From the NCBI RefSeq assembly GCF_005434965.1, contig NZ_SKCI01000001.1, positions 381,370 to 445,369 on the forward strand: a stretch of 64,000 nucleotides of DNA, written 5' to 3'. Under the pieces are notes generated by a model that did no database searches, had not been told where the DNA came from, and saw only the letters and a list, made by a program, of their open reading frames with translations. The position numbers and the translations under genes were made by a program. The DNA comes from Marimonas lutisalis. GTDB lineage: Bacteria; Pseudomonadota; Alphaproteobacteria; Rhodobacterales; Rhodobacteraceae. Positions 10,007 through 32,160 of the stretch are shown here, one piece after another. The first letter of the stretch is position 1. Every line of letters begins with the position of its first letter.

Positions 10007-11395
10007 TCAGCTGTGAATCGGACCGTCCCCGCAGGCAAGTGCCGCCTCGCGCACCGCCTCGGAATAAGTCGGGTGGGCGTGGCAGGTCAGCGCCAGGTCC
10101 TGCGCCGAGGCACCGAACTCCATCGCCACGCAGATTTCGTGGATCATGTCGCCCGCCGCAGGCCCGATGATCGCCGCACCCAGGATGCGGTCGGTCTCGG
10201 GATGGGCGATGATCTTGACGAAGCCGTCGCTCTGGAAAACCGCCTTGGCCCGCGCGTTGCCCTTGAACATGAACTTGCCGATCTTGGGCTTCAGGCCCGC
10301 TTCTTTCAGCTCGGCCTCGGTCTGGCCGACGGTGGCCACCTCGGGGGCGGTGTAGACGACGCCGGGGATGACGCCGTAATTGACGTGGCCATGACGGCCG
10401 GCCAGCACCTCGGCCACGGCCATGCCCTCGTCCTCGGCCTTGTGCGCCAGCATCGGGCCGGGGGTGACATCACCGATCGCATAGATGCCGTCAACGCTGG
10501 TTTTCCAGTTGTCATCGACGGCGACCTGGCCGCGCTCGGTTATCTTCACGCCCAGCGCATCCAGGCCCAGGCCGTCGGAATAGGGTTTGCGGCCGGTGGC
10601 CACCAGCACGATATCGGCGTCGATGGTCACGTCGTCGCCGCCCTTTTTCGGCGCGTAGGTCACCTTGGCCTTGGTCTTGAGCGCCTCGGTGCCCTTGACC
10701 GCGGCGCCGGTGATGATTTCCAGCCCCTGCTTGTCGAGGATGCGCTTGAACGTGCGCTGCACGTCAGCATCCATGCCGGGACAGATCGCGTCCATGTATT
10801 CCAGCACGGTCACGTCCGATCCCAGCCGGGCATAGACGCTGCCCAGTTCCAGCCCGATCACGCCGGCGCCGATCACCACCAGTTTCTTCGGCACCTTCGG
10901 CAGTTCCAGCGCGCCGGTCGAGCTGACCACGGTGTTTTCGTCGATTTCGACGCCGGGAATGCTGGCGGGTTCCGAGCCGGAGGCGATGACGATGTTTTTG
11001 GCCTCATGGGTGTCGTCGCCCACCTGCACCTTGCCCGGCGCGGGGATCGTGGCCCAGCCCCTGATCCAGTCGATCTTGTTCTTCTTGAACAGGAATTCCA
11101 CGCCGCCGGTGTTCTGCTCGATGGTTTCGTCCTTGTAGGCGAGCATCTGTTTCCAGTCGACCGAAGGCGATTTGCCCTTGAGCCCCATGGCCGCGAAATT
11201 GTGCTCGGCTTCGTGCAGCATGTGGGAGGCGTGCAAGAGCGCCTTCGAGGGGATGCAGCCCACGTTGAGGCAGGTGCCGCCCAGCGCCTCGCGGCCCTCG
11301 ACCACGGCGGTCTTGAGCCCCAGCTGGGCGCAGCGGATGGCGCAGACATAGCCGCCGGGGCCGGCGCCGATGATGATCACGTCATATTGGGCCAT
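10007..11395 (-). CDS. lpdA: Dihydrolipoyl dehydrogenase (E3)
   Basis: FAD enzyme that reoxidises dihydrolipoamide on the 2-oxoglutarate dehydrogenase E2 with NAD+. It has 462 residues from the ATG at 11395 ([15 protein letters not shown]), preceded by an AAAGGA-type ribosome site; an in-frame start 36 bases upstream lacks family support. Marks are the N-terminal FAD Rossmann motif GAGPGG, the redox disulfide in [13 protein letters not shown], the NAD Rossmann motif [10 protein letters not shown], and the C-terminal HAHPTYSE with the catalytic His-Glu pair. As last gene of sucCD-DUF805-sucA-odhB-lpdA it is presumably the E3 for this complex, though E3 is often shared with other dehydrogenases. 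Confidence 0.97.
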
Positions 11396-11463
11396 GGGTT
11401 CGGTCCTTTGCTTGCTGGTGTGCTCGCGCACTCAGGTTTGTTCGCGTTCGGGCCACGCAGGCC

Positions 11464-11538: not shown

Positions 11539-13047
11539 TCAGAGATCCATCAGCAACCGGCGCGGGTCTTCCAGCGCGTCCTTGACGCGGACGAGGAAGG
11601 TAACCGCGCCCTTGCCGTCGACGATGCGGTGATCGTAGCTGAGCGCGAGATACATCATCGGGCGGATCACGATTTCACCGTTCACCACCACCGGGCGCTC
11701 CTGGATCTTGTGCATGCCGAGGATGCCCGATTGCGGCGGGTTGAGGATGGGCGAGGACATGAGCGAGCCGTAGACGCCGCCATTCGACAGCGTGAAGGTG
11801 CCGCCCTGCATTTCCGCCATCGACAGCTTGCCGTCGCGGGCGCGCCGACCCTTTTCGCCGATTTCCTTCTCGATCTGGGCAAAGCTTTTTTCGTGCACGT
11901 CGCGGATCACCGGCACGACGAGACCCTGCGGCGTGCCCGCCGCCACGCCCATGTGGACGTAATTCTTGTAGACGATGTCGGTGCCGTCGATCTCGGCGTT
12001 GACCTCGGGCACCTCGCGCAGCGCGTGCACGCAGGCCTTGGTGAAGAAGGACATGAAGCCCAGCCGCACGCCGTGTTTCTTCTCGAACTCGGCCTTGTAG
12101 GTGTTGCGCAGCTCCATCACCGCGCTCATGTCGACCTCGTTATAGGTGGTCAGGATCGCGGCGGTGTTCTGCGCGTCCTTGAGGCGGCGGGCGATGGTCT
12201 GGCGCAGGCGGGTCATTTTCACCCGTTCCTCGCGCGCGGCATCGTCGGCGGGCACGGGCGCGCGCGGCGCGGCCGCGGGCTGCGGCGCCGGGGCGGCTGG
12301 GGCCGGGGCAGGTGCGGGCGCGGTGGCCGCTTTCTGCACGTCTTCCTTCATGATGCGGCCATCGCGGCCGGTGCCCTGTACGCTGGCCGGGTCGATGCCC
12401 TTGTCGGCCATCAGTTTCTCGGCGGAGGGTGCGTTCTTCACGCCTTCCGGCGCGGCGGCCGGCGCCGGTGCGGCGGCAGCGGCGCTCGCGGTCGCGGCGC
12501 CTTCGCCGGCACTGATCACCGCCAGTTTGCCATTGGCCTGCACGGTGCTGCCTTCGGCGGCGACGATCTCGGACAGTGTGCCCGAGGCAGGCGCGGGCAC
12601 TTCGACCGATACCTTGTCGGTTTCCAGCTCGCAGAGCATTTCATCCTGGGTGACGCTGTCGCCGACGGATTTGAACCAGGTCGAAACGGTCGCCTCGGTC
12701 ACGCTTTCGCCCAGGGTGGGCACCATCACGTCGACGGCGCTGCCGCCCGACTGTGCAGGCGCTTCGGTGGGTTTTGCCGCGGCCTTGGGTTTTTCGGGCG
12801 TGGCTGCGCCGCCTTCGGCGATCGTGGCCAGGAGAGCGTTGACGCCGACTGTGTCGCCCTCGGCGGCGACGATCTCGCCCAGGGTGCCGGCGGCGGGCGA
12901 AGGCACCTCGACCGTCACCTTGTCGGTTTCCAGCTCGCAGAGCATTTCATCGACGGCAACCGCGTCGCCCGGCTTCTTGAACCAGGTTGCGACGGTGGCC
13001 TCGGTGACGCTTTCGCCCAGGGTGGGCACGCGGACTTCGGTGGACAT
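11539..13047 (-). CDS. odhB: 2-oxoglutarate dehydrogenase E2, dihydrolipoyl succinyltransferase (two lipoyl domains)
   Basis: Core of the 2-oxoglutarate dehydrogenase complex: transfers the succinyl group from lipoamide to CoA. The 502 residues contain two lipoyl domains (residues 3-78 and 105-180, lipoyl lysines Lys43 and Lys145 in ETDKV), an Ala/Pro linker, an E3/E1-binding domain ([20 protein letters not shown] to IMKEDV), a second Ala/Pro linker and the catalytic acyltransferase domain with YDHRIVDG. Most bacterial SucB/OdhB have one lipoyl domain; the duplicated copy makes this longer than the ~400-residue norm. ATG at 13047 starts 3 bases after the sucA stop. Confidence 0.96.
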
Positions 13048-13050
13048 GTA

Positions 13051-16014
13051 TCAGTTCCCTTCCAGATTGAGCGCGTCGTTGACCAGCGCTTCCTGTTGTG
13101 CCTTGTGCTGCTTGGCCAGGCCCGTGGCGGGCGAGGCTGCGGCGGGGCGCCCGGCATAGACGGGGCGCGTATGCTTGGCCTTGATGCGTTCGAGCACCCA
13201 CTCGATGTTGGGCTCGATGAAGCTCCAGGCGCCCTGGTTCTTGGGCTCTTCCTGGCACCAGACCATCTCGGCCCCCTTGAAGCGTTCCAGCTCCTTCACC
13301 AGGCTCATCGCCGGGAAGGGATAGAACTGTTCGATCCGCAGGAGGTAGACATCGTCAATCCCGGCAGCATCGCGCGCTTCCAGCAGGTCGAAATAGACCT
13401 TGCCCGAGCACATGACGACGCGGCGGATATCCTTGTCCTTCTTCAGCTTGGTGTCGGAATGGCCTTTCTCGGCATCATCCCACAGCACGCGGTGGAAGCT
13501 GGATCCGGTGGTGAAATCATCGGCATCCGAGATGCAGAGCTTGTGCCGCAGGAGCGATTTCGGGGTCATCAGGATCAGCGGTTTGCGGAACGAACGATGC
13601 AACTGGCGGCGCAGGATGTGGAAATAGTTGGCCGGCGTGGTGCAGTTGGCGACGATCCAGTTGTCTCCGCCGCACATCTGCAGGAAGCGTTCCAGCCGGG
13701 CCGAGCTGTGCTCGGGGCCCTGGCCCTCATAGCCATGCGGCAGCAGCACGGTCAGGCCCGACATGCGCAGCCATTTAGATTCGCCCGAGCTGATGAACTG
13801 GTCGAACATGATCTGCGCGCCGTTGGCGAAATCACCGAACTGCGCCTCCCACATGGTCAGCGCGTTGGGCTCGGCCAGCGAGTAGCCATACTCAAACCCG
13901 AGCACCGCATATTCCGAGAGCATCGAGTCGATGACCTCGTACTGGGCCTGCCCCTCGCGGATGTGGTTCAGCGGGTAATAGCGTTCCTCGGTTTCCTGGT
14001 TGATCAGGCCCGAATGGCGCTGGCTGAAGGTGCCGCGGGTGCTGTCCTGGCCGGCCAGCCGCACGGGATAGCCCTCGGTCATCAGCGAACCGAAGGCCAG
14101 CGCTTCGCCGGTGGCCCAGTCAAAGCCCTGGCCGCTTTCGAACATCTCTTTCTTGGCGTCCAGCAACCGCGCCACGGTCTTGTGCAGCGGAAAGCCCTCT
14201 GGCGCGGTCGAGAGCGCACGGCCGATTTCCGCGAGCGTCTCGGGTTTGATCGCGGTTTCGCCGCGCTGGTATTCCTCGTTGCGGCGGTCCAGGTGGCTCC
14301 AGCGGCCATCCAGCCAGTCGGCCTTGTTGGGCTTGAAGTCCTTGCCGGCCTCGAACTCGTCGTTCAGATGCGCCTGGAAGGCGGCTTTCATGTCCTCGAT
14401 CTCGCCCTCGGGGATCAGGCCATCCTGCACCAGGCGATCGGTATAGAGCGACAGCGTGGTCTTGTGGCTCTTGATCTTCTTGTACATCACCGGGTTGGTG
14501 AACATCGGCTCATCGCCTTCGTTATGGCCGAAGCGGCGATAGCAGAACATGTCGATCACCACGTCCTTGCCGAATTTCTGGCGGAACTCGGTGGCCACCT
14601 TGGCGGCGTGCACCACGGCTTCGGGATCGTCACCGTTGACGTGGAAGATCGGCGCCTCGACCATCAGCGCGATGTCGGTCGGATAGGGCGAACTGCGCGA
14701 GAAATGCGGCGCGGTGGTAAAGCCGATCTGGTTGTTGACGATGATATGGATCGTGCCGCCGGTGCGGTGTCCCTTGAGCCCCGAAAGCCCGAAACATTCG
14801 GCCACGACACCCTGTCCGGCAAAGGCCGCGTCGCCGTGCAGCAGCACCGGGATCACCGCGGTGCGGTCGGGGTCGTTCAACTGGTCCTGCTTGGCGCGCA
14901 CCTTGCCCAGCACCACCGGGTTCACCGCCTCGAGGTGCGAGGGGTTCGCCGTGAGGCTGAGGTGCACGGTATTGCCGTCGAACTCGCGGTCCGAGGAGGC
15001 GCCGAGATGGTATTTCACGTCGCCCGAGCCGTCCACGTCCTCGGGTTTGAAGCTGCCGCCCTGGAACTCGTTGAAGATGGCGCGGTAGGGCTTGCCCATC
15101 ACGTTGGCCAGCACGCTCAGCCTGCCGCGGTGGGGCATGCCGATCACGATTTCCTTGGCGCCAAGGCTGCCGCCGCGCTTGATGATCTGTTCCATCGCGG
15201 GAATGAGCGCCTCGCCGCCATCGAGGCCGAAGCGCTTGGTCCCCATGTATTTCACATGGAGGAACTTCTCGAAGCCCTCGGCCTCGACCAGCTTGTTCAG
15301 GATCGCCTTCCGGCCCTCGCGGGTAAAGGCGATTTCCTTGCCGTAACCCTCGATCCGTTCTTTCAGCCAGCCGGCCTGCTCGGGATCCGAGATGTGCATG
15401 TATTGCAGCGCAAACGTGCCGCAATAGGTGCGCTTCACGATGTCGATGATCTGCCGCATCGTGGCAAAGTCGAGCCCAAGCACCTTGTCGATGAAGATCG
15501 GCCGGTCCATGTCGGCCTCGGTAAAGCCATAGGCCTTCGGGTCGAGCTCGGGGTGCGGCGTCTGGCTGCGCATGCCCAGCGGGTCGAGATCGGCCACGAG
15601 ATGGCCGCGGATCCGGTAGGCGCGGATGATCATCAGCGCGCGGATACTGTCGAGCACCGCCTGGCGGATCGCGTCATCGCTGACCTCGACCTTGGCTTCC
15701 CTGGCCTTGCCCTTGATCTTTTCGGCGGCGGATTTGGCCTCTTCGGGCAGCGGCGCCCAGTCCCCCGTCAGCGCGCCAGTCAGGTCGTCCTGCGGCACGG
15801 GCGGCCAGTCGGGGCGCGCCCAGCTGGGGCCCTGCGCTTCGGCCTTCACGTCAGTCTCGGCATCGCCCATCTGGGCAAAGAACGCGGCCCAGGCCTCGTC
15901 CACCGCGCCCGGATCGTTGGCGTAACGGGCGTAAAGCTGCTCCAGATACTCGGCATTGTGCCCTTGCATGAAGGACGATGCTTTGAATTGGTCGTTGGGG
16001 GAATGTTCGGTCAT
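13051..16014 (-). CDS. sucA: 2-oxoglutarate dehydrogenase E1 component
   Basis: Thiamine-diphosphate enzyme that decarboxylates 2-oxoglutarate and passes the succinyl group to lipoamide on OdhB. It is 987 residues, normal for SucA. Marks include the N-terminal E2-contact helix ending in YLEQLYARYANDPG, GMPHRGRLSVLANV, HGDAAFAGQG (ThDP region), NNQIGFTT, RRFGHNEGDEP and the C-terminal transketolase-like domain with SQRHSG and LLPHGYEGQGPEHSSAR. It lies downstream of sucC-sucD and the DUF805 gene, and upstream of odhB with a 3-base gap. Confidence 0.98.
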   Translation of the reverse strand: MTEHSPNDQFKASSFMQGHNAEYLEQLYARYANDPGAVDEAWAAFFAQMGDAETDVKAEAQGPSWARPDWPPVPQDDLTGALTGDWAPLPEEAKSAAEKIKGKAREAKVEVSDDAIRQAVLDSIRALMIIRAYRIRGHLVADLDPLGMRSQTPHPELDPKAYGFTEADMDRPIFIDKVLGLDFATMRQIIDIVKRTYCGTFALQYMHISDPEQAGWLKERIEGYGKEIAFTREGRKAILNKLVEAEGFEKFLHVKYMGTKRFGLDGGEALIPAMEQIIKRGGSLGAKEIVIGMPHRGRLSVLANVMGKPYRAIFNEFQGGSFKPEDVDGSGDVKYHLGASSDREFDGNTVHLSLTANPSHLEAVNPVVLGKVRAKQDQLNDPDRTAVIPVLLHGDAAFAGQGVVAECFGLSGLKGHRTGGTIHIIVNNQIGFTTAPHFSRSSPYPTDIALMVEAPIFHVNGDDPEAVVHAAKVATEFRQKFGKDVVIDMFCYRRFGHNEGDEPMFTNPVMYKKIKSHKTTLSLYTDRLVQDGLIPEGEIEDMKAAFQAHLNDEFEAGKDFKPNKADWLDGRWSHLDRRNEEYQRGETAIKPETLAEIGRALSTAPEGFPLHKTVARLLDAKKEMFESGQGFDWATGEALAFGSLMTEGYPVRLAGQDSTRGTFSQRHSGLINQETEERYYPLNHIREGQAQYEVIDSMLSEYAVLGFEYGYSLAEPNALTMWEAQFGDFANGAQIMFDQFISSGESKWLRMSGLTVLLPHGYEGQGPEHSSARLERFLQMCGGDNWIVANCTTPANYFHILRRQLHRSFRKPLILMTPKSLLRHKLCISDADDFTTGSSFHRVLWDDAEKGHSDTKLKKDKDIRRVVMCSGKVYFDLLEARDAAGIDDVYLLRIEQFYPFPAMSLVKELERFKGAEMVWCQEEPKNQGAWSFIEPNIEWVLERIKAKHTRPVYAGRPAAASPATGLAKQHKAQQEALVNDALNLEGN

Positions 16015-16136: not shown

Positions 16137-16670
16137 TCAGACCGCCCGTTGGTCTGCCGGGGGCGGGCCATAGGCGTTGTCGCCATGGTCCGACGGACGG
16201 GTCAGCCACCAGATCATCAGAATGGTGAGAACGATCATCAGAAGCATGGCGATGAGGGCGCCGATGCCGCCCGCAAGGGCCACTCCTGCGGCCATATCGG
16301 GATCGATGCCCTGACCCTGTTCCATCAGCGCGACACCGAAAATACCGCCAAGAAGCGTGAGATTCAGAAATATCGAAATCACAAGCGGGATCAGGATGTA
16401 CCAGCCCGGGCGTCCGCTGTCGTGCAGTCGGCGGAAGCCCGCAGCCGTAATCGGTATGATCAGCGCGAGCGAGTAGAGCATCGAAAGCGGTTGAGTGCCC
16501 CGCTGCCCGGGTGCTGGGGCGCCGAAGATCGCGGTTTCGATCAGGCTGACGACAACAGCGCCGATAATCATGGCCAGCGCAAACCACCAGTATTCGGATC
16601 GCGACGCGCGCCCCGAAAAGGTGGCATATTTCTCAGTCAGGCAGGTTTTGACTGCCGTTTTGAAATCCAT
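16137..16670 (-). CDS. DUF805 family membrane protein
   Basis: A 177-residue membrane protein. The N-terminal segment YATFSGRASRSEYWWF is the DUF805 hallmark (F-x-GRxxRxxYW), followed by hydrophobic segments and the second hallmark RRLHDSGRPGWY. Function unknown for the family. It lies between sucD (33-base gap) and sucA (122-base gap) on the same strand, splitting what would otherwise be a contiguous sucCDAB operon. Whether it is co-transcribed cannot be read from sequence; I see no strong terminator on either side. Confidence 0.93.
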   Translation of the reverse strand: MDFKTAVKTCLTEKYATFSGRASRSEYWWFALAMIIGAVVVSLIETAIFGAPAPGQRGTQPLSMLYSLALIIPITAAGFRRLHDSGRPGWYILIPLVISIFLNLTLLGGIFGVALMEQGQGIDPDMAAGVALAGGIGALIAMLLMIVLTILMIWWLTRPSDHGDNAYGPPPADQRAV

Positions 16671-16703: not shown

Positions 16704-17585
16704 CTACCCGATGGCCTCCAGCATCGCTTCGCCCAGGCCGGCGGGGCTTTCAGCCACCACGATGCCCGCGCTGCGCATGGCTTCGATCTTGTCCTCGGCG
16801 CCGCCCTTGCCACCGGCGACGATGGCGCCGGCGTGGCCCATGCGGCGGCCCGGGGGGGCGGTGCGGCCGGCGATGAAGCCCGCGACAGGCTTCTTGCGGC
16901 CCTTCTTGGCCTCGTCTTTCAGGAACTGGGCCGCTTCTTCTTCGGCGCTGCCGCCGATTTCACCGATCATGATGATGCTTTGCGTCTCGTCATCCGCCAG
17001 GAACCATTCCAGCACGTCGATATGCTCGGTTCCTTTGATCGGGTCGCCGCCGATACCCACGCAGGTCGACTGGCCCAGGCCCACATCCGTCGTCTGTTTC
17101 ACGGCCTCATAGGTCAGCGTGCCCGAGCGCGAGACAACACCCACGCTGCCGCGCTTGTGAATATGGCCGGGCATGATGCCGATCTTGCAGGCGTCCGGTG
17201 TAATCACGCCCGGGCAATTCGGGCCAATCAGCACCGATTTGCTGTCTTCCAGCGCGCGTTTCACCTTCATCATGTCCAGAACCGGGATGCCCTCGGTGAT
17301 CGCCACGATCACTTCCATCTCGGCGTCGATCGCCTCGAGGATACTGTCTGCCGCAAAGGGCGGGGGAACGTAGATCACCGTGGCGTTCGCCCCGGTCACA
17401 TGCCTGGCCTCGTGGACCGAGTTGAAAACCGGCAGATCAAGATGCGTCTGCCCGCCCTTGCCGGGGGTCACGCCGCCGACCATCTGGGTGCCATAGGCAA
17501 TGGCCTGTTCGCTGTGGAAGGTGCCCTGCGAGCCGGTAAAGCCCTGGCAGATCACCTTGGTATTTTCGTCGATGAGAACTGCCAT
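16704..17585 (-). CDS. sucD: Succinyl-CoA synthetase alpha subunit
   Basis: With SucC interconverts succinyl-CoA and succinate with ATP or GTP formation in the TCA cycle. The 293 residues carry the CoA-binding Rossmann domain ([25 protein letters not shown]), [10 protein letters not shown], the ligase domain with GPNCPGVI, and [11 protein letters not shown] with the phosphorylated active-site histidine. ATG at 17585 begins 5 bases after the sucC stop. Confidence 0.98.
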
Positions 17586-17590
17586 TTTCC

Positions 17591-18784
17591 TTAGCCCTTC
17601 ACTGCCTTCACGATTTTCTGCGCGCCATCTTTCAGGTCATCCGCGGCAATCACGTCCACGTCGCTCTCGTTGATGATCCGCTTGCCTTCTTCCACGTTGG
17701 TGCCTTCCAGGCGCACCACCAGCGGCACCTTCAGGCCCACTTCCTTCACCGCGGCCACAACGCCCTCGGCGATCACGTCGCAGCGCATGATGCCGCCGAA
17801 GATGTTGACAAGGATGCCTTTGACGTTCGGATCGCTCGTGATGATCTTGAACGCCTCGGTCACTTTCTCCTTGGTCGCGCCACCGCCGACATCGAGGAAG
17901 TTGGCCGGCTCGGCCCCGTAAAGCTTGATGATGTCCATCGTCGCCATGGCCAGCCCCGCGCCATTCACCATGCAGCCGATTTCGCCATCCAGCGCGATGT
18001 AGTTCAGATCGTATTTCGAGGCTTCCAGCTCTTTCGGGTCTTCCTCGGTCACGTCGCGCAACTCGGCGATGTCGGCATGGCGGTAGATCGCATTGCCGTC
18101 AAAGCCCATCTTCGCGTCCAGGCACTTCAGGTCGCCCTTGTCGGTGATGATCAGCGGGTTGATCTCAAGCATCTCCATGTCTTTTTCCACGAAGAGCTTG
18201 TAGAGCGTGCCCATCAGCGCCACGCATTGCTTCACTTGCGGACCGGTCAGGCCCAGCATGAAGGCGATGCGACGGCCGTGAAACGGCTGGTACCCGGTGG
18301 CCGGATCGACCGAAAAGCTGAGGATTTTCTCGGGCGTGCTTTCGGCCACTTCCTCGATGTCCATGCCACCCTCGGTCGAGGCGACATAGGAAATACGGCT
18401 GGTTTGACGGTCGACCAGCAGGGCGAGGTAGAATTCCTTCTCGATGCCCGAGCCGTCCTCGATATAGATGCGGTTCACCTGCTTGCCGGCGGGGCCGGTC
18501 TGCTTGGTGACCAGCGTTCGGCCCAGCATGCGCTTGGCCTCCAGCTCGGCCTCTTCCACCGACTTGGCCAGCCGCACGCCTCCCTTTTCGCCGGCGTCGG
18601 CCTCCTTGAAGCTGCCCTTGCCGCGACCGCCCGCATGGATCTGCGCCTTGACCACCCAGAGCGGGCCATCCAGTTCACCGGCTGCGGTTTTGGCCTCTTC
18701 GGCCCGTGTCACGACGCGGCCATCACTGACCGGTGCGCCATACTGGCGAAGAAGCGCCTTCGCCTGGTATTCGTGAATATTCAT
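17591..18784 (-). CDS. sucC: Succinyl-CoA synthetase beta subunit
   Basis: Nucleotide-binding (ATP-grasp) subunit of succinyl-CoA synthetase. I placed the start at 18784 ([16 protein letters not shown]), the standard SucC N-terminus, with AGGTGAGCCG upstream, instead of an in-frame start 54 bases further out. It has 397 residues, normal length. Visible are the ATP-grasp domain ([13 protein letters not shown]), the metal/nucleotide loop LEINPLI and the C-terminal ligase domain ([24 protein letters not shown]). First gene of the suc block; the 254-base upstream region holds two TGTGATCACA palindromes. Confidence 0.98.
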
Positions 18785-18889
18785 CGGCTCACCTGTTTCA
18801 TTTACGTTGCCCTGCGTAGTGGCATAAGGTTGCGGCAAACCTAAGCTTTATTCGTAAGTCGGGCTGATTTTCGGCAAATTTCCGCAATT

Positions 18890-18920
18890 TGTGATCACAG
18901 CCGGAAAACGTGTGATCACA
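18890..18920. promoter_or_regulatory. Paired TGTGATCACA operators upstream of sucC
   Basis: Two perfect 10-bp palindromes, TGTGATCACA at 18890-18899 and again at 18911-18920, 21 bp apart start to start (two helical turns). They lie 106-136 bases upstream of sucC and 119-149 bases upstream of the divergent sulfotransferase gene. The same pair with the same 21-bp spacing occurs upstream of sdhC. The missing 6-bp spacer argues against a CRP/FNR site. The regulator is unknown. Confidence 0.7.
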
Positions 18921-19038
18921 AATCCAAACATGCCTGAATCCGCATGTTTCAAAAACAGAATCACCCGGGCGATGGTGGACTTGCCTGCAATGCTGTGAAA
19001 CGGTTTGCCGCATCGGTGCCAGTGACAGGACGAAAATC

Positions 19039-19647
19039 ATGCCGCTTGCCAGGATTGGCCAGACGCTTCTCTACTTTGCCCATATCCCGAAAACCGGCGG
19101 CACCAGCATCGAGGCCTATCTGCGCGAAAAGGGCGAGGTGGCGATGCATCACACCCGGCCCGGCGACTGGTCGGCCTGCTCGCCCCAGCATATCCACGCG
19201 GCGGTTCATACCACGCTGTTTCGCCCGGGCTTCTGCGATCATGCCTTCGCCGTGCTGCGCGATCCGCTGGCACGGCTGCAAAGCGAATACCGCTATCGCG
19301 CCGCGCAGGTGAAAAAGCGCAAGGGGCTCGACATTCAGCCTTTCGACGACTGGATCACCAAGACCTTTCGCCGCTACGGCAAGAACCCCTATGTCTTCGA
19401 CAACCACATCCGCCCGCAGGTCGAGTTCCTGAGCGAGGGGATGGAGCTTTTCGCGCTTGAGGACGGGCTGGACCGCGTTTTCGACTGGATCGACCACGTC
19501 ACCGGAGACAGCCGCGCGGTGCCGCGCCGGTGGGAAAAGAAACTTGCCCCGATCCCGATCACGATGAGCGAGGAGACCCGCGCGCGGATCGAGGAGTTCT
19601 ATGCTGCTGATTACACCTTCCTGGCCGGGCAGGGGGGCAGGGCATGA
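19039..19647 (+). CDS. Sulfotransferase family protein
   Basis: A 202-residue protein of the PAPS-dependent sulfotransferase fold. The 5'-phosphosulfate loop is AHIPKTGGTSIE (about residues 14-25), and FAVLRDPLARLQSEYRYR fits the 3'-phosphate-binding motif with its Arg and Ser. Such bacterial proteins sulfate polysaccharides or other acceptors; the acceptor is unknown here. The stop overlaps the ATG of a glycosyltransferase gene (ATGA), so the pair probably modifies the same surface glycan. It is transcribed away from sucC, sharing the region with the paired palindromes. Confidence 0.85.
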   Translation: MPLARIGQTLLYFAHIPKTGGTSIEAYLREKGEVAMHHTRPGDWSACSPQHIHAAVHTTLFRPGFCDHAFAVLRDPLARLQSEYRYRAAQVKKRKGLDIQPFDDWITKTFRRYGKNPYVFDNHIRPQVEFLSEGMELFALEDGLDRVFDWIDHVTGDSRAVPRRWEKKLAPIPITMSEETRARIEEFYAADYTFLAGQGGRA

Positions 19648-27783: not shown

Positions 27784-28191
27784 GTGATCATTTCAAGCAT
27801 TCTGATGGGGATCGCGGCGCTCGGGGCGGCGCTTATGGGCGCAAAATATGGTTTCGGGCCGGTGCCTGCCGATTATCACGCCCAGATCGTCGAAAAGGAC
27901 GGGGCGCCCCCGGGGACGCATTTGCTGCTCGTTTTGACCGCCCTTTACCGGACACTTGCAGGAGCGCTGTTTGCGGTTGCGATTCTCGTCGCCGCGCTTG
28001 CCCTTGGCCCGATCCGCGCAGGGGAGGTTTGGGCGGTGCTCCTGGCCGCAGTTGCGGGGCTTTGCGTCGCTGTTCCTGCCGCGCTCGTGCCGCTGCGGGT
28101 CGAGCGGGCAACCGGCGTCGGCACACCGTGGAAAATCGGGGTATTGTCCGGCGTTTTGATCTTGGCGGGTCTTATCGCCGCGTTTTTGTGA
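27784..28191 (+). CDS. Small integral membrane protein of unknown function
   Basis: A 135-residue protein from GTG 27784 with three or four hydrophobic segments (IISSILMGIAALGAALMG; LVLTALYRTLAGALFAVAILVAALAL; WAVLLAAVAGLCVAVPAAL; IGVLSGVLILAGLIAAFL). GTG 27784 follows AGGGGG with 8-base spacing; an ATG at 27754 in the same frame has only a weak site. No recognised family. Its stop lies in the region where the first TGTGATCAC-type site begins, so the end of the gene overlaps the sdh control region. Confidence 0.65.
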   Translation: MIISSILMGIAALGAALMGAKYGFGPVPADYHAQIVEKDGAPPGTHLLLVLTALYRTLAGALFAVAILVAALALGPIRAGEVWAVLLAAVAGLCVAVPAALVPLRVERATGVGTPWKIGVLSGVLILAGLIAAFL

Positions 28192-28196
28192 TCACG
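28187..28196. promoter_or_regulatory. TGTGATCACG site, distal sdh copy
   Basis: TGTGATCACG, one base off the perfect palindrome, overlapping the stop codon of the upstream membrane-protein gene and 99 bp upstream of the paired sites. It could allow looping or only be a relic. Confidence 0.5.
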
Positions 28197-28285: not shown

Positions 28286-28316
28286 TGTGATCACGCAACG
28301 CTGTAGCGTGATCACA
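28286..28316. promoter_or_regulatory. Paired TGTGATCACG / CGTGATCACA operators upstream of sdhC
   Basis: TGTGATCACG at 28286-28295 and CGTGATCACA at 28307-28316, again 21 bp start to start, as in the pair before sucC. The two are mirror images around their centre. They lie 150-180 bases upstream of sdhC in a 274-base gene-free stretch, where they would be placed to control the sdh operon. Confidence 0.7.
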
Positions 28317-28465: not shown

Positions 28466-28849
28466 ATGGCCGAGACAAAGCAGGTCGACCGCCCGCTCAG
28501 CCCGCATATCCAGATCTACCGCCCGCAGCTTACCTCGATCACCTCGATCCTGACGCGGATCACCGGCAACGCGCTCATTGTCGCCGCCGTGCTGATTGTC
28601 TGGTGGCTGCTGGCCGCCTCGACGTCCGAGGCATATTTCGCCACCGCCAACGCGGTGCTGACCTCCTGGTTCGGCGATCTGGTGCTGTCGCTCTCGGTCC
28701 TGGGTGTCTGGTATCACTACCTGGCCGGGCTCAGGCATCTCTATTTCGATGCCGGTCACGGCCTCGATATCCCCACGGCGGAAAAACTCGGCTGGGCCTG
28801 TCTCGTCGGCTCGGTCGTGCTCACCGTCATCACCCTTCTGATCGTGTAA
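28466..28849 (+). CDS. sdhC: Succinate dehydrogenase cytochrome b556 subunit
   Basis: Membrane anchor of complex II that helps bind haem b and ubiquinone. It has 127 residues. The N-terminus RPLSPHIQIYRPQLTSITSILTRITG is the standard SdhC signature, with Ser and Arg near the quinone site; three hydrophobic segments follow, with HYLAGLRHL holding the haem-ligand His. AGGGGGACACC precedes ATG 28466. First gene of sdhCDA-lipoprotein-sdhB. Confidence 0.97.
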   Translation: MAETKQVDRPLSPHIQIYRPQLTSITSILTRITGNALIVAAVLIVWWLLAASTSEAYFATANAVLTSWFGDLVLSLSVLGVWYHYLAGLRHLYFDAGHGLDIPTAEKLGWACLVGSVVLTVITLLIV

Positions 28850-28859
28850 GGAGAAGACC

Positions 28860-29231
28860 ATGCGCTACCTTACAGCCCGCAAACGCGCCGAAGGTAAAGG
28901 CGCCTCGCATACAGGGACCGAGCATCACTGGTACATGACCGTGTCGGCCGTGGGCCTCGCGTTCCTGATCCCCACCTTCATCTTCATCGTCGGCGGTGCC
29001 CTTGGCGGTACCCGCGAAGAGGTGCTGGCCGCCTTCGCGCGCCCCTTTCCGGCAATCCTGACGGGCCTCACGCTCTATGTCGGCATGATGCACTTCAAGA
29101 AGGGCGCCCAGATGATGATCGAGGATTACTGGCAGGGCACCACCCGCAAGGCGCTGATCATGCTGGTGATCGGGCTTTCCTACACCATCACCGCCACCGG
29201 GCTTTTCGCGCTCGCCAAAATCGCACTCTGA
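28860..29231 (+). CDS. sdhD: Succinate dehydrogenase hydrophobic membrane anchor subunit
   Basis: Second membrane anchor of complex II. It has 123 residues with three hydrophobic segments, the N-terminal [23 protein letters not shown] typical of alphaproteobacterial SdhD, and the segment [21 protein letters not shown] with the conserved His and Asp-Tyr of the haem/quinone region. ATG 28860 lies 10 bases after sdhC, with AAGGAGAA upstream. Confidence 0.95.
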
Positions 29232-29241
29232 GGAACGACCA

Positions 29242-31047
29242 ATGGCCGCTTACGAATACGAAACACATGATTACGACGTGGTCGTCGTGGGTGCCGGCGG
29301 CGCCGGTCTGCGCGCGACCCTCGGCATGGCCGAACAGGGCCTGCGCACCGCCTGCGTGACCAAGGTGTTCCCGACCCGATCGCACACCGTGGCCGCGCAG
29401 GGGGGCATCGCCGCGTCGCTCAGCAACATGGGCCCCGACCACTGGCAATGGCACATGTACGACACCGTCAAGGGCTCGGACTGGCTGGGCGATACCGACG
29501 CGATGGAATACCTCGCCCGCGAGGCGCCCAAGGCTGTCTATGAGCTCGAACATTACGGCGTGCCGTTCAGCCGCACGGAAGAGGGCAAGATCTACCAGCG
29601 CCCCTTTGGCGGCCACACCACCGAGTTTGGCGAAGGCCCGCCGGTGCAGCGCACCTGCGCGGCGGCCGACCGTACCGGCCACGCCATCCTGCACACGCTC
29701 TATGGCCAGAGCCTGAAGAACAACGCCGAGTTCTACATCGAGTATTTCGCGATCGACCTGATCATGAGCGAGGATGGCCAGTGCCAGGGCGTCGTCTGCT
29801 GGAAGCTCGATGACGGCACCATGCATGTCTTCAACGCCAAGATGGTCGTGCTGGCCACCGGCGGTTATGGCCGCGCCTATTTCTCCTGCACCTCGGCGCA
29901 TACCTGCACCGGCGACGGTGGCGGTATGGTGGCCCGCGCGGGCCTCGCGCTGCAGGACATGGAATTCGTGCAGTTCCACCCCACCGGCATCTATGGCTCG
30001 GGCTGCCTGATCACCGAAGGCGCGCGCGGCGAAGGCGGCTATCTCACCAATTCCGAGGGCGAGCGCTTCATGGAGCGCTACGCGCCGCAGTATAAAGACC
30101 TCGCACCGCGCGACTATGTCAGCCGCTCGATGACCATGGAAATCCGCGAAGGCCGCGGCGTGGGCGCCGAGGGTGACCATATCCACCTCAACCTCAGCCA
30201 CTTGCCGGCCGAGGCGCTGGCCGAACGCCTGCCGGGCATCTCGGAAAGTGCCAAGATCTTCGCCGGCGTCGATGTCACCAAGGAACCGATCCCGGTTCTG
30301 CCGACGGTGCATTACAACATGGGCGGCATCCCCACCAACTACTGGGGCGAGGTGCTGAACCCCACGAAGAAAGACCCCAACGCCGTCGTGCCCGGCCTGA
30401 TGGCCGTGGGCGAGGCGGGCTGCGCCTCGGTGCATGGCGCCAACCGGCTCGGCTCGAACTCGCTCATCGACCTCGTGGTCTTTGGCCGCGCCGCCGCGAT
30501 CCGCGCCGGCAAAGTGGTCGACCCGGATGCGCCGAACCCGGAACTCAACCAGGCCAGCGTCGATGCCGCCTTCGCGCGTTTCGATGCGCTGCGTCACGCC
30601 AAGGGTGCCATCCCCACGGCCGACCTGCGGCTTGAAATGCAGAAAACCATGCAGGCTGATGCCGCCGTGTTCCGCACCTCGAAAACCCTCGCCGAGGGCG
30701 TCGAGAAGATGACCGCGATCGCCGCCAAGATGGATGATCTCAAGGTCACCGATACGTCGCTGGTCTGGAACTCGGACCTGATGGAGACGCTGGAACTGAC
30801 CAACCTGATGCCCAACGCGATGGCCACCATCGTCGGCGCCGAGGCGCGCAAGGAATCCCGCGGCGCCCACGCGCACGAGGATTTCACCGAGCGCGACGAC
30901 AAGAACTGGCGGGTGCACACCATCGCCCATGTCGACGGGCCCAAGGTCACGCTTTCCTATCGCGATGTCATCAAGGACCCGCTGACCACCGAAAAGGAAG
31001 GCGGCATCAGCATCAAGAAAATCGCCCCCAAGGCGCGGACCTTCTGA
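29242..31047 (+). CDS. sdhA: Succinate dehydrogenase flavoprotein subunit
   Basis: Catalytic subunit of complex II, oxidising succinate to fumarate with covalently bound FAD. It has 601 residues. Visible are the FAD Rossmann motif [21 protein letters not shown] with the histidine that links [12 protein letters not shown] with the active-site His, [13 protein letters not shown]-like PRDYVSRSM with catalytic Arg, and [11 protein letters not shown] near the C-terminus. ATG 29242 with GAGGAACGACC upstream, 10 bases after sdhD. The stop overlaps the following ATG by one base (TGATG). Confidence 0.98.
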
Positions 31048-31367
31048 TGCGGATGGCGCTGGCTCTCCTCGCGCCCCTGGCGCTTGCGGCCTGCGACGTG
31101 GCCCAGCAGGCCGCCGACGATGTCGCGCGCGGTCAGGCCAAGCGCGCCGTCAATTCCGTGGTGGCCGAACGCTTCCCGGGCGTCGATGCGGCGCCCGTCA
31201 CCGATTGCATCATCGACGCGGCCAGCGCCCAGGAAATCCTGCAGATCGCAGGCAGTTCCGCCACCGGCGCGCGGGCCGAAATCACCCAGATGGTGCTCCA
31301 GATCGCGCAGCGCCCCGAGGCCGTCACCTGCATCGCAGGCGCCGGCGTCACGCTTCTGAAACTATGA
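31047..31367 (+). CDS. Small lipoprotein between sdhA and sdhB
   Basis: A 106-residue protein with a signal peptide and lipobox LALAAC, so the predicted lipidated residue is Cys16. The mature part is helical and Ala/Gln-rich with two further cysteines (VTDCIIDAA and AVTCIAGAG) that may pair. It overlaps the sdhA stop (TGATG) and is followed by sdhB after 10 bases, so it is fully embedded in the operon. A role in complex II assembly or in the envelope is possible but not shown by any motif. Confidence 0.78.
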
Positions 31368-31377
31368 GGATAGACCC

Positions 31378-32160
31378 ATGGTTCAACTGACCCTCCCCAA
31401 GAACTCGCGCATGATCACGGGCAAGACATGGCCCAAGCCCGAGGGCGCGATCAACCTGCGCAAGTTCCAGATCTACCGCTGGAACCCCGATGACGGGCAG
31501 AACCCGCGGCTCGACACCTATTTCGTCGATCTCGACGATTGCGGGCCGATGGTTCTCGACGGGCTCATCTACATCAAGAACAAGATCGACCCGACGCTCA
31601 CCTTCCGCCGGTCCTGCCGTGAAGGCATCTGCGGCTCCTGCGCGATGAATATCGACGGGATCAACACGCTGGCCTGCATCTACGGCATGGACGAGGTCAA
31701 GGGCGACACGGTCAAGATCTACCCGCTGCCGCACATGCCGGTGGTCAAGGACCTGATCCCGGACCTCACCCATTTCTATGCCCAGCATGCCAGCATCATG
31801 CCGTGGCTGGAGACCAAGACGAACCGCCCGCAGAAAGAGTGGAAACAGTCGATCGAGGATCGCAAGAAGCTCGACGGGCTCTATGAATGCGTGATGTGCG
31901 CCTCGTGCTCCACGTCCTGCCCCAGCTACTGGTGGAACGGCGACAAGTATCTCGGCCCGGCGGCGCTCCTACATGCCTATCGCTGGATTATCGACAGCCG
32001 CGACGAGGCCACGGGCGAACGTCTGGACGATCTGGAAGATCCGTTCAAACTCTACCGCTGCCACACCATCATGAACTGCGCCAAGACCTGCCCCAAGGGG
32101 CTGAACCCGGCAAAGGCGATCGCGGAAATCAAGCGCATGATGGTCAACCGGGTAGTGTGA
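31378..32160 (+). CDS. sdhB: Succinate dehydrogenase iron-sulfur subunit
   Basis: Electron-transfer subunit of complex II linking FAD to ubiquinone. It has 260 residues. The N-terminal 2Fe-2S domain has CREGICGSC and a distal Cys (NTLAC); the C-terminal ferredoxin domain has [12 protein letters not shown] for the 4Fe-4S cluster and [17 protein letters not shown] for the 3Fe-4S/4Fe-4S pair. ATG 31378 preceded by GAGGATAGACCC. Last gene of the sdh operon; a perfect palindrome follows at 32206-32229. Confidence 0.98.

Follow-up and report, generated by a model that had tools for sequence, protein, structure and literature searches.

Which protein reads the two palindromes ahead of sucC in Marimonas lutisalis, and which genes does it control? 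The palindrome, TGTGATCACA, consists of two half-sites that abut without a spacer, and its two copies lie 21 bp apart from start to start. The original prediction had described two exact copies at this distance before the suc operon, and both were recovered in place (Table 1). The pair is separated by 105 bases from sucC, whose start codon is at 18784 on the minus strand, and is flanked on the other side by a Sulfotransfer_2 gene that begins at 19039 on the plus strand. The gene order behind the pair is sucCD-DUF805-sucAB-lpd. Relatives of the sulfotransferase at E 1e-5 were found in none of the 30 named loci compared (L016–L045); in view of this absence, the divergent gene was rejected as a co-target and probably lies outside the regulated set.

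Table 1. Coordinates of the palindromes, the neighbouring genes and the regulator gene
Feature	Position	Strand	Description or basis
Palindrome, sucC-proximal site	18890..18899	.	Exact TGTGATCACA; position conserved in named relatives
Palindrome, sucC-distal site	18911..18920	.	Exact TGTGATCACA; 21 bp step
Whole dyad with outer flanks	18887..18923	-	Letter counts per column in the 28 aligned suc pairs spaced at 21 bp
sucC, first gene behind the pair	17591..18784	-	Translation and relatives
sucD (CoA-binding, CoA-ligase)	16704..17585	-	Pfam
DUF805 protein, encoded between sucD and sucA	16137..16670	-	Pfam
sucA, 2-oxoglutarate dehydrogenase E1	13051..16014	-	Pfam
sucB, E2 component	11539..13047	-	Pfam
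lpd, E3 component	10007..11431	-	Pfam
First site of the sdhC pair	28286..28295	.	TGTGATCACG
Second site of the sdhC pair	28307..28316	.	CGTGATCACA; 21 bp step; 149 bp before sdhC
Extra single site	28187..28196	.	TGTGATCACG; overlaps the terminal part of the preceding ORF
sdh genes: two Sdh_cyt membrane subunits, flavoprotein, iron-sulfur protein	28466..32160	+	Pfam
GntR/FCD regulator, 215 residues	Other contig, G000:C7, L003:1519-2166		Pfam GntR and FCD

In the window, i.e. the whole stretch of 64,000 nt that was analysed, exact TGTGATCACA occurs twice as compared to 0.06 expected, and none of 100 shuffles gave two copies. With at most one mismatch, it occurs five times as compared to 1.27 expected, a count given by one of 100 shuffles. 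Across the genome (4.32 Mb), there are four exact copies and none in the control, and 34 occurrences with at most one mismatch as compared to four in the control. The palindrome therefore stands above its chance frequency; a frequency no higher than chance was one of two outcomes, with lack of conservation before sucC, that would have refuted the original prediction, and neither was observed. Two of the four exact genomic copies form the suc pair, one precedes a GntR gene and one lies inside coding frames. The last (L004:748-1548) is accompanied by a near copy 12 bp away, in what looks by eye like the His-rich tail of an ABC-transporter-ATPase-like frame, and both probably stem from codon repetition.

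We scanned 198 genomes of the family, one per genus, for the pattern YGTGATCACR-N1-31-YGTGATCACR, using the reversed pattern as the control. The pair was present in 171 of the 198 genera (152 of 173 among the high-quality genomes), and the control gave no match. The 75 pairs listed, which came from 42 genomes, comprise 65 with a step of 21 bp, seven with 20 bp and one each with 13, 18 and 31 bp. A random-window null contained a pair in 66 of 3000 windows, 60 at a step of 21 bp, five at 20 bp and one at 17 bp; since the windows were drawn from loci that themselves contain real pairs, this null shows only the rarity of other steps. The notion that the pair is a chance or compositional repeat could draw on the exact single sites elsewhere, which mostly lie in coding frames, but the shuffles (0/100), the silence of the reversed control in all 198 family genomes and the fixed step leave it practically no credit.

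A narrower scan of the class, restricted to spacers of 10–12 and covering 289 genomes, found the pair in six: all four sampled family members and two of the 285 others. These two genomes, G211 and G344, belong to one other family, and their palindrome pairs, spaced by 21–22 bp (L268:2001-2032 and L269:991-1021), stand 80–110 bp before frames that resemble TonB-dependent receptors by eye, not before suc or sdh; they are perhaps sites of another GntR relative that shares the core. In one genome of the class scan, G271, the reversed control matched twice and the pattern not at all.

The conservation holds at the suc locus itself. Of the 80 named sucC loci, the 30 that match best (L016–L045) include 26 with two strict sites in the 400 bp upstream; a strict site was found there in none of the other 50, among them two labelled Rhodobacterales (L079 and L093). 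When the window is added to the 30 best-matching loci and the threshold is set at 17 or more of the 20 site positions, the pair is kept in 30 of 31 orthologous sucC regions, with a step of 21 bp in 28 and 20 bp in two. Two sites separated by two helical turns, as originally proposed, are thus borne out by relatives, with a step of 21 (or 20) bp. The exception is L029; a 21-bp pair occurs elsewhere in its genome, so the sucC gene at this locus may be a second copy. In the aligned regions, the second site ends 95–119 bp before the sucC start codon, and only weakly conserved blocks are found between the two.

The 28 suc pairs with the 21-bp step were aligned column by column. The two GTGATCAC cores together span 16 columns; fifteen show a single letter throughout, and the sixteenth differs in two of the 28 sequences. 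Read toward sucC, the two positions preceding the first site are each T in 20 of the 28, the two positions behind the second site are A in 26 and 25, and the inner position after the first site is C in 21. With its A/T outer flanks and C inner flank, the whole dyad is roughly a palindrome of two palindromes, the form expected if two dimers sit symmetrically on one face of the DNA. One dimer of a GntR/FCD protein would occupy each palindrome, and the 21-bp step would place both dimers on the same helix face, favouring a contact between them that may make their binding cooperative.

The sdh genes bear a similar pair. The claim that the same arrangement precedes sdhC stood as to the spacing, which is 21 bp, but not as to the exact letters, since TGTGATCACG and CGTGATCACA each differ from TGTGATCACA by one mismatch. 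In the 31 sequences, sdhC was found in 21, and 20 of these carry the pair upstream, 18 at a step of 21 bp and two at 20 bp. The window has a further single site at 28187-28196, about 100 bp ahead of its sdhC pair; additional sites near the sdh pair also occur in L019 and perhaps in L031.

The third exact copy of TGTGATCACA points to a candidate for the binding protein, as it is located 8 bp upstream of the start codon (ATG) of a GntR/FCD gene. The genome has 17 GntR-domain hits, and this regulator gene is the only one with an upstream site matching at least 9 of 10 positions. Its closest GntR paralog, L139 (G000:C9:472013), is 44% identical and has no upstream palindrome. Matches to the regulator at E 1e-30 or better were found in 181 of the 198 genera, and many genera show a second match. 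Among solved structures, the closest chain by sequence is McbR (PDB 4p9f, E 5.9e-20).

To describe the regulator's own promoter, we compared the upstream regions from 72 genomes, including that of the window. Twelve came from those of the 30 best matches that lie on the plus strand; the other 60 were mostly next-best or minus-strand matches, some of them picked for linkage or for lacking the pair. In this sample, which is not random, 57 of the 72 orthologs have an upstream site matching at least 9 of 10 positions and 15 have none; the site frequency in letter shuffles of the regions from the second group of 60 is 0.3%. A TTGA lies 9–24 bp upstream of the site in 56 of the 57 site-bearing orthologs, at exactly 17 bp (first letter to site) in 49 of them, and the next ATG follows 7–8 bp after the site in 36. 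The corresponding TTGA-palindrome-ATG arrangement in the window's own genome is found at L003:1484-1521. TTGACN corresponds to the consensus of a -35 box. If it is read as such, the palindrome would extend from the last part of the spacer into the -10 element, and the ATG would lie at about the transcription start. An operator so placed inside the regulator's own promoter suits repression, and the arrangement hints at a leaderless message. The single palindrome within the putative core promoter thus most likely serves autorepression, and an AkgR-type regulator would probably repress its own gene.

The presence of the pair also tracks that of the regulator. Of the 198 genomes, the pair is missing from 27 and the regulator from 17, with 16 genomes having neither (Fisher p = 1.5e-15, uncorrected for kinship). 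The 173 high-quality genomes comprise 152 with both, eight with the regulator only, 13 with neither and none with the pair only; in other words, all 13 without the regulator also lack the pair, as compared to eight of the 160 with it. The sole genome in which the pair is present and the regulator was not found, G095, is 77% complete. Eleven genomes have the regulator and no strict pair. Five of these carry a pair with one or two mismatches, which in four cases stands beside sucC or sdhC according to a short peptide check. Among the other six, three (G054, G121 and G194) show weak regulator matches only, two (G146 and G165) are 71–73% complete, and one, G154 (92% complete), is unexplained, although the search for sucC in it came up empty. 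The suspicion that one regulator serves both suc and sdh is upheld by these data, inasmuch as the pair precedes both operons and a GntR gene bearing the same motif tracks the pair. Furthermore, an unsystematic reading of the match lists shows at least ten genera in which no more than 20 kb separates the regulator gene from a palindrome pair.

Of the 17 genomes without the regulator, 16 have a sucC gene, with a match of only 52% in G021. Fifteen of their sucC upstream regions were read, two of which (L295 and L301) were excluded because, with the loci cut, the position fell inside the gene; among the 13 that count, the pair is present only in G095. Three regulator-less genomes have two-mismatch hits, located away from sucC and sdhC by the short peptide check. 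Two of the 13 contain what look like relics: in G156 (L297), TGTGATAACA and CGTAGTCATA are 21 bp apart at -139 of sucC, and in G108 (L292), a single TGTGATCAAA lies at about -116. These eroded sites appear as if they were decaying after loss of the regulator. A sucC tree requires seven changes of pair state (7–8 in bootstraps), of which well-supported branches force only two; the tree left out the wrongly framed L295, five named rows without a pair (L079 and L093 among them) and the two weak-match genomes G054 and G194, and its two outgroup rows were labelled regulator-minus by assumption.

We take RSP_0981 of Rhodobacter sphaeroides to be AkgR, per Imam et al. 2015. RSP_0981 is a GntR-family protein with predicted control of sucCD, sdh and kgd (2-oxoglutarate dehydrogenase), according to the available portion of PMC4344238, and the accessible text of PMC6365646 describes AkgR as a transcriptional activator that binds GTGATCAC. 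This core is present in both suc palindromes, the genome encodes a GntR-family protein with the motif at its own gene, and pairs stand before the whole suc run and before sdhC. The linkage of regulator and pair agrees with the proximity of the gene numbers RSP_0974-6 and RSP_0981 in R. sphaeroides (PMC4344238, same portion). A more distant likeness is offered by PS417_07240 from the deoxyribonate cluster of Pseudomonas simiae, which is gntR-like, 32% identical to AkgR, and shares the GTGATCAC palindrome, which occupies -47 to -40 relative to its own start codon; it differs in that one palindrome only is described and in being proposed for deoxyribonate oxidation, not the TCA cycle (PMC6365646, accessible text). 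Searches of the literature for TGTGATCACA returned, judged by title, nothing related, and those for AkgR/CceR, RSP_0981 and GTGATCAC retrieved no text on a 21-bp pair, the primary AkgR paper being outside their scope. The kind of system, the regulator and the core motif have been published before for R. sphaeroides, and we claim no priority for the pair. With high confidence, we propose on sequence grounds that the pair is the double operator of an AkgR ortholog, a statement that would fix both the operator and the identity of its regulator; the equation with AkgR itself draws on motif, targets, family and linkage.

A different protein, whether of the CRP/FNR family, CceR or an unidentified one, might instead bind the pair, the link with the GntR gene being coincidental. 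The CRP box is TGTGA-N6-TCACA, with a 6-bp spacer, and the FNR box is TTGAT-N4-ATCAA. The half-site of the palindrome resembles that of CRP (TGTGA...TCACA), but here the half-sites have no spacer between them, and the original prediction was right that this is no normal CRP/FNR box. CceR is presumably RSP_1663, and by eye TGTGATCACA has no GTT/AAC arms. RSP_1663 is indeed predicted to regulate sdh in R. sphaeroides, but its motif, [AGT]GTT-N6-8-AAC[ACT], does not fit (PMC4344238, available portion). The fixed geometry of the site at the GntR gene in 49 of the 57 site-bearing orthologs and the co-occurrence of the site with that gene, the only gene so compared, further argue against a foreign binder, which we regard as very improbable.

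The sign of control calls for more caution than the identity of the operator. At suc, which encodes succinyl-CoA synthetase and 2-oxoglutarate dehydrogenase, and at sdh, which encodes succinate dehydrogenase, the pair lies about 100–150 bp before the start codon, where the AkgR ortholog would most likely act as an activator. The same regulator at the same sites could instead repress suc and sdh and be released by a TCA intermediate, a reading that shares operator and regulator with ours and departs from it only as to the sign. Many GntR/FCD proteins act as repressors, and at the regulator's own gene the site lies over the putative core promoter. Since a scan near the suc pair found no sigma-70 consensus, the suc promoter, and hence the geometry of activation or repression, is not fixed, which leaves room for a repressor. 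However, with the second suc site ending 95–119 bp before the start codon and only weakly conserved blocks following, the pair need not cover the promoter, and AkgR is called a transcriptional activator (PMC6365646, accessible text). Repression of suc and sdh is accordingly the less favoured reading, and we consider it rather unlikely; activation by the AkgR ortholog is preferred.

The regulon appears compact. By a rough GC3 screen, the remaining near-matches in the genome are mostly coding, with a few intergenic ones (e.g. L007 and L014), and the extra exact sites in eight relatives likewise lie mostly in coding frames, with no common target seen. For these reasons, the predicted targets with support are limited to suc, sdh and the regulator's own gene; further weaker sites are possible. 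A site near ccoN (named by eye) was considered as a target and rejected, as it falls in the ccoN coding start.

The regulator would sense a metabolite. We tentatively extend the proposal, giving it somewhat less than an even chance, to a scheme in which the phased pair of dimers, forming one dyad-symmetric complex, would be the sole mode of action on the metabolic targets and would provide a cooperative switch for the stretch from 2-oxoglutarate to fumarate, while the single operator in the apparently leaderless promoter of the regulator would set its level. This three-promoter regulon would have been kept across the family and dismantled, with decay of its operators, in several lineages that lost the regulator. 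The pair gives the family an operator that is simple to search for, placed before two central operons of the TCA cycle, and with it the name of the protein expected to bind there. Regulator-less genomes with eroded or no operators, taken with the compact regulon and the strict two-turn spacing, form a natural series, which suits the questions of how paired GntR sites act and how a circuit of core metabolism is lost.
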